A DNA stretch of 61,213 nt from Alphaproteobacteria bacterium. GTDB lineage: Bacteria > Pseudomonadota > Alphaproteobacteria > Rhizobiales > Hyphomicrobiaceae. The translations under genes were made by a program, and so were the position numbers. The DNA lies in assembly GCA_022600345.1 (NCBI GenBank), contig JAHZKP010000013.1:1-61213 (forward strand), written 5' to 3'. Below, one piece after another: positions 35,409-38,810 of the stretch (within the stretch, counting starts at the first letter, position 1; each line of letters begins with the position of its first letter). The notes below the pieces were generated by a model. That model was not told the DNA's origin. It ran no database searches and was given only the letters and a program-made list of their open reading frames with translations.

Positions 35409-36560
35409 CTACTGCTGCAAGCCCAACAGGCTGAGAAGCCCCGGTGCCGTTTGCGGCGGCGGCGCCCGATAATCGGTCATCGCGGTCTTGATCTCTTCGT
35501 AGAGCCCAGGCACCCAGTTCGGCCCCTTGTGCAGCGGCGTCTGGTTCTCATCGCGTTTGTGCCGGAAGTCGGTTGGGGCAATCACGACCTTGATGTTTCT
35601 CTTGCCCACTTCGGCCGCCAACACAAACAATTCCTCCGCCGAATTGTCACCCACGGCCAGACACCCCGCCGAGACGTTCTTGCCGTGGATCATGATGTCG
35701 CCGCCCAGGTCCTTTCGTCCGTCCTTGCGCGCCATCTTTCGATCGAATGCATTGGGATAGTTGACCCGCATGGAGACGTGATAGGCACTATTGGGATTGA
35801 GATAGGAAATCCGGTAAATCCCCTCGGGGACCTGCTTGTCACCGCGTTGTAGTTTCGGCCCGCTTCGGCCGCTCGCCGCCAACACCTTGTAACGGTGCAC
35901 GAAACTCCAGTCTCCATCCTTTGGCCGCGCGTAGAGCTCCAAGGCCTTTTCATCCTTGATCCCCAGCAATGCGATTTTATGAGGTGGCCAGGCGACCTTC
36001 GCGGCTTCAAATTTCGCCGACACCCTTTTCACCGCTGCCGGCGATATCTCGGCAAGGCGCTGTTTCAGGGTGTAGCGCTTCTTTCGAACCTTGCGAGTTT
36101 TCCCAACCTTGGAGTCGCGGCTGGGCTTTGATCGGGCCGCCGCCGGCCGTCGTGGCTTTGCCGCCGTCGCGGGGCGCTGTTGAACCTCAACCGACCAGGA
36201 CTCAGGATGGGCCGCCGCCTCCACGACATCATCGGAAAATTCCAGTTCGCCAACATCAGGACTGACGAACGATAGCCGTGATGGTCGCAATTCTGGCAGC
36301 GTCGTTACCGACGGCTGATCCGCCGAGCGCGTTAAAGCCTGCTCTTGCATCAGCGATGGCCGGGTTGCTGGATGCGGTAAAGATGCCAGGACCGGCTCGC
36401 CAACCGCGACCAGAGATGGGCGTAGTTCTCCTGCTGAGTTTCCTTTTACGACACCATTGGTCTCAGGTGCATCCAGTGAAACAAGCGCCATCGTCGTCCC
36501 TGCACACACAATGCAGGAAAGCGCTGTCGCAACCATTGTAAAGCGTTGGTTCGCCTTCAT
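35409..36560 (-). CDS. L,D-transpeptidase (YkuD) family protein
   Basis: A 383-residue envelope protein. Hydrophobic N-terminus TMVATALSCIVCAGTTMALV is a signal or anchor; residues 30-175 are proline-, alanine- and basic-rich linker. The YkuD domain spans about 190-345 with H292 and C300 in the signature HGKNVSAGC. Such enzymes make 3-3 crosslinks in peptidoglycan or attach lipoproteins to it. The last 20 residues are Pro/Leu-rich. It has an unusually long upstream gap containing the palindrome array. Confidence 0.88.
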   Translation of the reverse strand: MKANQRFTMVATALSCIVCAGTTMALVSLDAPETNGVVKGNSAGELRPSLVAVGEPVLASLPHPATRPSLMQEQALTRSADQPSVTTLPELRPSRLSFVSPDVGELEFSDDVVEAAAHPESWSVEVQQRPATAAKPRRPAAARSKPSRDSKVGKTRKVRKKRYTLKQRLAEISPAAVKRVSAKFEAAKVAWPPHKIALLGIKDEKALELYARPKDGDWSFVHRYKVLAASGRSGPKLQRGDKQVPEGIYRISYLNPNSAYHVSMRVNYPNAFDRKMARKDGRKDLGGDIMIHGKNVSAGCLAVGDNSAEELFVLAAEVGKRNIKVVIAPTDFRHKRDENQTPLHKGPNWVPGLYEEIKTAMTDYRAPPPQTAPGLLSLLGLQQ

Positions 36561-36748
36561 CCCATGCTCACCGGATACTCAGCCAAACTGCCCAGGACCA
36601 TCCCGAACGGTCGACAGAATGTCTGATTCGCGCGGGTAGGTGGAAGTCTGGCCCCTGACAGCCCGCTTCAATCCACGATCAATAAGTCGCGATGAAGCCG
36701 GCAATCCTCCCCGACACGGTCGATGCCCTGATCGTCTCGTTGCCCATG

Positions 36749-36867
36749 GCCCGCCATCCCTAACCCACCCGACGCGACACGACACGGCCCGCCATCCCTA
36801 CCCCACCCGACACGACACGACACGACACGACAAGACACGACACGACACGACACGACACGACACGACA
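36749..36867. repeat. 37-bp duplicated unit plus CACGA pentamer tract
   Basis: GGCCCGCCATCCCTA, then CCCACCC and GACACGACAC, occurs twice in tandem (36749-36785 and from 36786). The second copy leads into eleven tandem pentamers (36811-36865: CACGA ten times and CAAGA once). Such a tract is prone to slippage and may vary in length between strains. Confidence 0.9.
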
Positions 36868-37308
36868 ATGAACAGAGTTGATTCTCGAACCGCTCAAACA
36901 CTGCATGAACCGGGTTCAAATAGGGGACTTGCCGCATATGGAGGCGTGAGTGAACTCAGTTCACGCACGCCTTGCCAGCTCGCAGACAGGACGGATAGCG
37001 TTCACGTCCCCCTCCGAATTGCCTGAAAATCAGGTGAACAGAGTTGACTCTCGAACCGCTCAAACAATGCGTGAACTGAGTTCAAGCAGTGAGGTCGCTG
37101 ACCTAGGGAAGGTGAGTGAACACAGTTCACCAACGCCTTGCCCGTTTGCAAACAGAACAGATAGCGTTCACGCCGCCTCCGTTTGGCCAGAAAGTTTTAT
37201 GAGCGACGTTCACGCCATCCCCGCCCCGCATCAACCACATGCCAAGTGAACAGAGTTCACGCACCTCCCGCCTTATGGCTAAAATGCGCATGAACTAAGT
37301 TCATGTGC
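36868..37308. promoter_or_regulatory. Array of eight 15-bp palindromes, consensus RTGAAC-N3-GTTCAY
   Basis: Sites: 36868-36882, 36905-36919, 36950-36964, 37034-37048, 37071-37085, 37116-37130, 37246-37260 and 37290-37304. Perfect examples are GTGAACTCAGTTCAC, GTGAACACAGTTCAC and GTGAACAGAGTTCAC. The last sits in a 25-bp near-perfect palindrome. Sites 1-3 and 4-6 have identical spacings (37 and 45 bases between starts) because a 166-bp block is tandemly duplicated. Half-sites GCGTTCACG recur between them. The arrangement looks like a protein-binding array; the protein is unknown. Confidence 0.8.
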
Positions 37309-37365
37309 AACCCCTGCTGCCACTGGGCGCATCCCCCCGTGCGGGAACCAGACAAATTGAGAAGG

Positions 37366-38070
37366 CTAATCTTCGTCTTTGTCCAGCGCGTAGCCAGCGC
37401 CGCGAACGGTACGAATAACATCAGGGTGGTCGTTGAGGCTCAGGGCCTTGCGCAGCCGTCCGACATGGACATCAACGGTTCGCAAGTCGACATCCTTTTC
37501 ACGCCCCCAGACCCGGTCCAGCAGACTTTCACGGCTCCAAACCCGGCCCGGCCGCTCCAAGAACGTCGATAGCAAACGGAATTCGGTCGGCCCCAGCTTC
37601 ACGCCCACACCCTCACGCGTGACCTTGTGCTCTTCCAGGTCGAGCTTGATGCCACCATAGGACAGGGTCTGGCTGACACTGCCCGGCCGGGTCCGCCGCA
37701 AGATCGCCCGCACGCGTGCAACCAATTCGTTCAGCGAATAAGGCTTGGTGATATAATCGTCGGCACCCGTATCAAGGCCGCGCACCCGGTCAGCCTCCTC
37801 ACCGCGCGCGGTCAACATCATGATCGGAATGTCCTGCGTTTGGCTTTGCCGCTTCAGGGTCCGGCAAACTTCGATTCCAGACACCTTGGGCAGCATCCAG
37901 TCGAGCACGATAAGGTCAGGCTCCACCTCTTCGACCAGCACCAGCGCCTCTTCGCCATCGCCCGCCGTCGCGGTCTGAAAGCCGGCAGCCTTTAAGTTGT
38001 AGGTCAGCAATTCCAATTGCGCCAACTCATCCTCGACGACGAGGATCATCGCGCTGGTCGGACTGATCAT
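37366..38070 (-). CDS. phoB: Phosphate regulon response regulator
   Basis: PhoB, when phosphorylated by PhoR, binds Pho boxes and activates phosphate-starvation genes. The 234-residue protein has the receiver aspartate D57 (LIVLDWMLPKVSG), switch residues ending in K109 (DDYITKPYS), and a winged-helix output domain (GPTEFRLLSTFLERPGRVWS, RTVDVHVGRLRKAL, IRTVRGAGYAL). The ATG overlaps the phoU stop by four bases. It is the last gene of pstSCAB-phoU-phoB. Confidence 0.96.
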   Translation of the reverse strand: MISPTSAMILVVEDELAQLELLTYNLKAAGFQTATAGDGEEALVLVEEVEPDLIVLDWMLPKVSGIEVCRTLKRQSQTQDIPIMMLTARGEEADRVRGLDTGADDYITKPYSLNELVARVRAILRRTRPGSVSQTLSYGGIKLDLEEHKVTREGVGVKLGPTEFRLLSTFLERPGRVWSRESLLDRVWGREKDVDLRTVDVHVGRLRKALSLNDHPDVIRTVRGAGYALDKDED

Positions 38071-38810
38071 TCCGCCTGCCCACCACCGGCTGCAGCTTCG
38101 CCCGAACTGATCGCAGTAAGGCTCGTCACGTCGCTCTTGGGTCGCTCTTCCTCCGGCAGCGAACCCGACACGACATAATGGATCTGTTCGGCTATTCCGG
38201 TAACGTGATCGCCCATCCGCTCCACGTTCTTGGCAATGAACAACAGATGCATGCAAGGCGTAATCGCACGCGGGTCTTCCATCATGTACGTCAATAGCTC
38301 GCGAAACAGCGAGTTGTGCATCTGGTCGACTTCAACGTCGCGCATGCGCACGTCGTCAGCCAGATTGATGTTGCGCGTCACATGTGCATCAAGGGCGTCC
38401 TTCAACATCTCCTGCACCAAGCCGCACATGCGTTTGACGATGTTCGCCGAAGCCCCGATATCACGAAATTCGCCCAACACCGTTGAGCGCTTGGCAATGT
38501 TCTTGGCAAGGTCGCCGATGCGTTCCAGACTGGCTGCAATCTTCAAGACGGCAACGACCGCGCGCAAATCCTGAGCGGCGGGCTGGCGCAACGCCAATAC
38601 GCGCACCACCGCAATATCGATTTCCGATTCCAGGTTATCGATTTTCCGGTCATCCGCCCGGACCGCCTTGGCCAGTTCCACATCTCGCTGGACCAGTGAA
38701 ATCGCAGAGTTGTCGATCTGCAATTCGACCATGCCGCCCATACGTGAAACCAGGTTTTCGATCTGCTGGAGATCTTCGTCAAACGACCGGACAATGTGAT
38801 CGCTCTTCAT
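38067..38810 (-). CDS. phoU: Phosphate transport accessory regulator PhoU
   Basis: PhoU links the state of the Pst transporter to PhoR and damps signalling when phosphate is plentiful. The 247-residue protein is two three-helix PhoU repeats (SFDEDLQQIENLVSRMGG, SLERIGDLAKNIAKR; then LTYMMEDPRAITPCMHLLFI, NVERMGDHVTGIAE), each with its E-R-[IM]-G-D motif. The ATG at 38810 is chosen over one three codons earlier because AGGA is better spaced. Confidence 0.95.
   Translation of the reverse strand: MKSDHIVRSFDEDLQQIENLVSRMGGMVELQIDNSAISLVQRDVELAKAVRADDRKIDNLESEIDIAVVRVLALRQPAAQDLRAVVAVLKIAASLERIGDLAKNIAKRSTVLGEFRDIGASANIVKRMCGLVQEMLKDALDAHVTRNINLADDVRMRDVEVDQMHNSLFRELLTYMMEDPRAITPCMHLLFIAKNVERMGDHVTGIAEQIHYVVSGSLPEEERPKSDVTSLTAISSGEAAAGGGQAE

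Follow-up and report, generated by a model that had tools for sequence, protein, structure and literature searches.

A TGAAC-N3-GTTCA palindrome array upstream of an L,D-transpeptidase gene as a probable TetR operator cluster of a membrane-stress regulon

The window studied here, a stretch of 61,213 nucleotides from a member of the Hyphomicrobiaceae, carries a dense cluster of palindromes between a phoB response-regulator gene and an L,D-transpeptidase gene. Which protein would recognize these palindromes, and to what end have so many of them been gathered in one place?

The array and its surroundings

The palindromes share the consensus TGAAC-N3-GTTCA and occupy positions 36869-37303, with no strand assigned. 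They lie between the 3' end of phoB (37366-38071, minus strand, stop at 37366; the gene was named from its open reading frame and its start codon is approximate) and the start of the L,D-transpeptidase gene (35409-36560, minus strand, ATG at 36560), 315-737 bp upstream of the latter, which is the gene downstream of the array. The transpeptidase has a YkuD domain and a partial, sub-threshold match to the LdtF/DpaA/YafK model. An earlier note on this DNA had counted eight palindromes of 15 bp; the array and its single consensus stand, with a core of 13 bp and nine sites. Six of these are exact (starts at 36906, 36951, 37072, 37117, 37247 and 37291 in a scan of the window) and three have one mismatch: 36869 and 37035, both TGAAC-AGA-GTTGA, and 37200, which reads TGAGC-GAC-GTTCA. 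One of the N3 triplets, listed in that note as CTG, is actually TGA.

The 166-bp block with three sites that had been described as tandemly duplicated was recovered as a direct duplication, which TRF detects too. Copy 1 (36869-37034, plus strand) contains the sites at 36869, 36906 and 36951, and copy 2 (37035-37200, plus strand) those at 37035, 37072 and 37117; the site spacings are 37 and 45 in both and the copies are identical at 115/166 positions. The series continues with the degenerate site TGAGCGACGTTCA (37200-37212) and the exact sites TGAACAGAGTTCA (37247-37259) and TGAACTAAGTTCA (37291-37303). The DNA between the sites has drifted more than the sites, as the note had maintained: arm bases are identical between the copies at 30/30 positions, N3 bases at 6/9 and the remainder at 79/127 (30/30 for arms vs 85/136 for all non-arm bases, Fisher p = 4e-6). 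Shuffling the interval 2000 times under a first-order Markov model gave a maximum of one exact site and two sites with one mismatch or better, against six and nine observed.

On the transpeptidase side the array abuts a (CGACA)12 microsatellite (36808-36867, plus strand), which is overlapped by a 38-bp repeat (36748-36824). Separate from the array, the box GCGAATCAGACAT (36619-36631, minus strand), situated 59-71 bp before the transpeptidase ATG, is a candidate proximal promoter element. Its core, CGAATCAG-N-CAT, is invariant in the six aligned transpeptidase upstream regions (the window and five orthologs) and contains GANTC, the CcrM methylation site. This conserved box, nearer to the ATG, may hold the transpeptidase promoter, and its GANTC makes a cell-cycle promoter possible. 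A sigma70 scan of 36400-37500 gave no match on the transpeptidase strand and one on the plus strand (shuffle mean 0.5).

A scan of the whole 4.09-Mb genome, which the note had recommended, excludes a chance frequency of the motif: the exact consensus occurs 30 times and a reversed-pattern control twice. Most exact sites are clustered, and 28/30 lie outside recognizable genes (open reading frames judged by eye). Six are on the contig of the window (C34), six on C134, four on C11, three each on C27, C144 and C142 (those of C142 lying apart), two on C81 and one each on C43, C94 and C97. While the array of the window neighbours the L,D-transpeptidase gene, the C134 cluster neighbours genes for a TetR regulator and for PspA/IM30, the C11 cluster one for RlpA, the C27 cluster one for an acyltransferase-carrier-AMP-ligase fusion behind a membrane gene, and the C144 cluster one for Aas, an acyl-ACP phospholipid acyltransferase (above the NCBIfam equivalog cut-off). 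The single sites of C97, C43 and C94 have as neighbours a DUF2157 gene, an aldo-keto reductase gene and a LuxR-type regulator gene, respectively. Two of the C142 sites (L025:5728 and L025:8912) are in or beside duplicated sequence with similar flanks that was named Rhs-like by reading.

A TetR regulator linked to pspA and aas

The candidate regulator is the tetR gene of C134 (L023:4582-5199), which stands beside a divergent pspA whose product matches PspA_IM30 with 67.8 bits (cut-off 33.9); six exact sites lie between the two genes. The TetR protein exceeds the Pfam cut-offs for PF00440 (28.2 bits, cut-off 24) and PF13305 (58.1 bits, cut-off 26.8), a TetR_N + TetR_C_33 architecture, and has sub-threshold NCBIfam matches only, among which BioQ does not figure. 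When 103 genomes of the family were searched with this protein, 96 contained some match at E 1e-10. The relatives were divided into clade A, made up of the protein itself and those at 38-66% identity, and clade B, at 33-37%. Among the 30 loci read, an exact site is present within 300 bp upstream of tetR in 19/24 of clade A (own genome included), is absent from that distance in the other five, and is found upstream in 0/6 of clade B. With no sites in any of its six loci, the clade B TetR was not adopted as the regulator of the array. In three of them (L052, L053 and L055), a gene close to it encodes a product that contains MANF-THI. In genome G002, which has one exact site, the clade A tetR (L034) contains an in-frame stop.

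A clade A profile was built from 17 proteins, and the best 80 of 200 relatives in named genomes were used; 20 of these loci belong to genomes already in the family set and 60 are new. The named genomes of these best 80 include Filomicrobium, Hyphomicrobium and many members of the Roseobacter group. An exact site occurs within 400 bp upstream of tetR in 72/80 of these loci and in 56/60 of the new ones, and the reversed control pattern matches once in the 80. The pspA gene lies within the fetched flank in 11/24 clade A loci and 52/80 named loci (again the best 80 of 200), and was not detectable within the flanks of the other 28. Where pspA is downstream of tetR on the same strand, two or three exact sites lie just before it in 43/43 loci (three in 23, two in 20), spaced by 22-23 and 33-36 bp, or by 56-59 bp at the two-site loci. 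Each of the nine divergent tetR/pspA pairs contains one or two exact sites, a number that rises to as many as four if one mismatch is tolerated. The 80 named loci contain 204 exact sites, distributed between the tetR start (84), the stretch just before a detected pspA (109), the corresponding place in loci without detected pspA (8) and elsewhere (3, in L270).

The aas gene was read in 30 loci, the aas of 45 further genomes falling outside the count. In 22 of them, two sites, neither with more than one mismatch, lie upstream of the gene at a distance of 31-39 bp from each other, and both are exact in 17. The first site forms a TTGAAC -35 element and the second is about at the expected transcription start; a -10 element with at least 4/6 matches at the best 15-18 bp spacer is found in 17/27 site-bearing loci, a raw count without a shuffle baseline. 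This placement is the usual repressor geometry. In the array, with the left arm as -35 as it is at aas, 0/9 sites reach 4/6 at -10, whichever strand is read. If the right arm is taken as -35 instead, the plus-strand site 37247 has 5/6 and the transpeptidase-strand site 36906 has 4/6, both graded weak. In four loci (L069, L071, L073 and L086), inspection by eye shows a probable ribosome-binding site with a start codon after the aas operator pair, suggesting that a small gene, absent from the annotation, precedes aas.

Across the family, the genomes with a clade A protein have on average 5.4 exact sites (n = 24) versus 1.2 in the others (n = 79; p = 1e-9, or 3e-9 when the own genome is left out). 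In clade A genomes the reversed control is slightly higher too (1.8 vs 1.3, p = 0.02). G008, a genome of the same genus, lacks both the TetR and the aas sites. G053 has a clade A protein, yet a single one-mismatch site at aas. Six genomes (G009, G096, G098, G099, G104 and G111, two of them represented by assemblies 78% and 88% complete) have the aas pair but no clade A protein; their lower-scoring TetR relatives (29-36% identity) were placed in clade B, three by alignment and three by score, and another protein may therefore read the site there. G023, which belongs to another family, has 22 sites (L137-L151), most of them single and sharing the core TGAACTTGGTTCA; it was dropped as a second expanded genome on these grounds, since most of these sites probably correspond to a dispersed repeat element. 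A triple of sites on its contig C242, which adjoins TetR (32%) and PspA (40%) homologs, was assigned to the TetR-linked set.

Because the sites of relatives are linked to tetR, pspA and aas, the array is best read, as the most likely explanation, as a group of operators belonging to a membrane-stress regulon under TetR control. The idea that the palindromes are binding sites of a dimeric protein is thus well supported at the sequence level, the probable protein being the TetR encoded next to pspA, and it seems very likely that the array consists of operators bound by it. The statement of the earlier note that no alphaproteobacterial regulator with this site was known has been overtaken, as the site marks a TetR in Hyphomicrobiales and Roseobacter-group genomes.

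Growth of the site set in one lineage

The own genome has 30 exact sites and its eight sister genomes have 1-10. A search for the array DNA in 29 genomes returned matches in the own genome only, and a plasmid search with the 761-bp interval returned none. The note had asked whether sister species keep the sites better than their spacers. The array is absent there, and the better preservation of the arms holds between the two internal copies only. The five transpeptidase orthologs that the eight sister genomes yielded (51-66% identity) have no sites, and phoB was not found within their fetched flanks. Upstream sites are also missing from 29 further transpeptidase matches in the family, 13 of them at 46% identity or more and the rest probably paralogs. 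Likewise, none of the eight rlpA relatives whose upstream DNA was long enough to read, drawn from seven genomes, has a site; there was no upstream DNA at a ninth locus.

Next to the extra clusters are short tandem repeats whose units are unrelated (window positions 36748-36867; L020, L021, L022, L023 and L024): (CGACA)12 in the window, 7-mers on C94 and C97, an 11-mer on C81, a 13-mer on C142 and several units on C134. No tandem repeats were found at aas (C144) or at the C43 site. Six of the nine merged tandem-repeat loci in site-bearing stretches are within 83 bp of a site versus 0/10 in a 266-kb sample, which is an association only, because the stretches were chosen for their sites. By automatic count, a repeat is present in 3/10 site-bearing intergenic segments versus 4/170 others (p = 0.004), in 3/10 versus 4/89 when segments of at least 300 bp are considered (p = 0.02), and in 0/90 segments of a sister genome sample. 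The automatic gene caller took spurious open reading frames for genes, one of them over the repeat of the window, and the regions were therefore recounted by hand. This gave 6/10 site-bearing regions versus at most 13/170 others (p = 1e-4), in a set that differs from the automatic one by leaving out the two Rhs-like places of L025 and including L017 and L021.

Possible roles of the array and relation to known systems

The reading that we favor, with a probability of roughly 0.78, is that the array is a TetR operator cluster in a membrane-stress regulon whose sites have multiplied in this lineage. A TetR dimer would bind each TGAAC-N3-GTTCA palindrome. At pspA, tetR and aas, where the sites are at or next to the promoter, the bound TetR would keep RNA polymerase from acting, and its release by a membrane or lipid signal would induce the membrane-maintenance genes. 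The inducer could be acyl chains or lysophospholipids, a guess that stems from the link to aas and thereby to lysophospholipid repair. In the Filomicrobium lineage, the site set has grown to 30 and now lies also beside cell-wall and lipid genes, including that of the L,D-transpeptidase, which may be tuned by several TetR dimers on the upstream array. The odds that the array controls the transpeptidase gene are roughly even. The multi-operator proposed for this gene in the earlier note is possible but unproven, given that the orthologs read have no sites and that the array shows no aas-like promoter overlap. A wider scenario can be entertained tentatively and is rather doubtful as a whole: a TetR with a conserved operator of two or three sites would govern pspA and lysophospholipid repair across Alphaproteobacteria, as a PSP system independent of PspF, and a single Filomicrobium lineage would have multiplied the operators six- to seven-fold into promoter-distant arrays beside microsatellites, where slippage could vary operator number and spacing and so retune cell-wall genes or titrate the regulator.

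Several other scenarios may explain the array. It could be a decoy that binds TetR without controlling any local gene, lowers the free repressor and sets the induction threshold of tetR, pspA and aas. The large number of sites, none of them in the promoter geometry of aas, the lineage-specific extra arrays next to a conserved core and the retention of arms while spacers drift would all fit. Nevertheless, other extra clusters too are upstream of envelope or lipid genes (rlpA, the acyltransferase/AMP-ligase, DUF2157), a placement that would be superfluous for a pure sponge, and we consider this explanation unlikely. It seems less plausible still that the array is mostly non-functional accretion, in which slippage and duplication enlarged intergenic DNA whose sites would be chance passengers or the legacy of an older operator. 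Its contact with (CGACA)12 and the 38-bp repeat, the proximity of tandem repeats to sites elsewhere in the genome and its absence from sister species are what such a process would leave behind, but the perfect agreement of the arms between the two diverged copies argues against neutral drift, and six exact sites remain.

A different DNA-binding protein, for instance another TetR with the same preference, might read the array instead. This would agree with the six genomes that have the aas pair and no clade A match, and with differences seen by eye within the sites: G precedes TGAAC in 4/6 exact sites of the window, and the N3 centres are unlike those at tetR and aas. The actinobacterial TetR-family regulator BioQ also has a predicted site that is written identically, TGAAC-N3-GTTCA (PMC3398298), the paper on it being the only one returned by a literature search for the written motif. 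Yet BioQ is linked to biotin genes, whereas the C134 TetR is linked to pspA and aas. No biotin gene is present among the annotated flanking genes of the own-genome clusters, and at E 1e-5 the clade A profile finds a single protein in the own genome; a different reader is accordingly improbable. The roles at the scale of the chromosome that the earlier note also listed (centromere, condensin loading, replication or segregation site) start from the tandem arrangement of the palindromes, which share a consensus and lie where there are no genes. They are unsupported, because the sites of relatives gather before tetR, pspA and aas and coincide with the -35 element at aas, and sister genomes do without the array. 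A parS- or centromere-type array, in which sites would not be tied to particular promoters, was rejected for the same reason, and an element of this kind is extremely improbable.

The favored TetR operator cluster resembles those of autoregulated TetR multi-operator repressors in the TetR_N + TetR_C_33 architecture, the palindrome upstream of the regulator's own gene and the operator over the -35 element of a core target. It differs from them in the linkage to pspA and aas and in the very large arrays of one lineage, away from recognizable promoters. The closest solved sequence is PDB 3cjd ("Transcriptional regulator, TetR family"; profile E 4.5e-46, nearly full length), for which the table names no function and the literature search found neither ligand nor operator. 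The likeness to PspA/IM30 phage-shock systems lies in the linked PspA_IM30 gene and in the YiaAB and DUF2157 genes that are in or near the gene set in some genomes. DUF2157 is also part of LiaF of the Bacillus lia operon (PMC11237479). The regulators of PSP systems named in that comparative survey are PspF, LiaRS and PadR-type proteins, as opposed to the TetR proposed here, and a text search of its main text did not find the word "TetR" (PMC11237479).

A TetR gene and psp genes have also been considered in Zymomonas, which is an alphaproteobacterium. Deletion of its ZMO0281, one of the TetR regulators paired with RND-family operons in that study, is reported to raise a pspA transcript (PMC10998469), and a pspABC set has been listed for it (PMC3495753). 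The proposed TetR-controlled membrane-stress regulon was not described in the titles and abstract openings covered by the literature search, in which subscription journals are thinly represented, so that it may be in print elsewhere.

Taken with the strength given above, the sites give membrane-stress control in two large groups of Alphaproteobacteria a probable regulator with its probable operator and core genes (tetR, pspA and aas, joined by YiaAB and DUF2157 in some genomes). The growth of operator arrays in a limited lineage would make repressor titration, long-range repression and repeat-driven tuning testable against close relatives that are free of the array.
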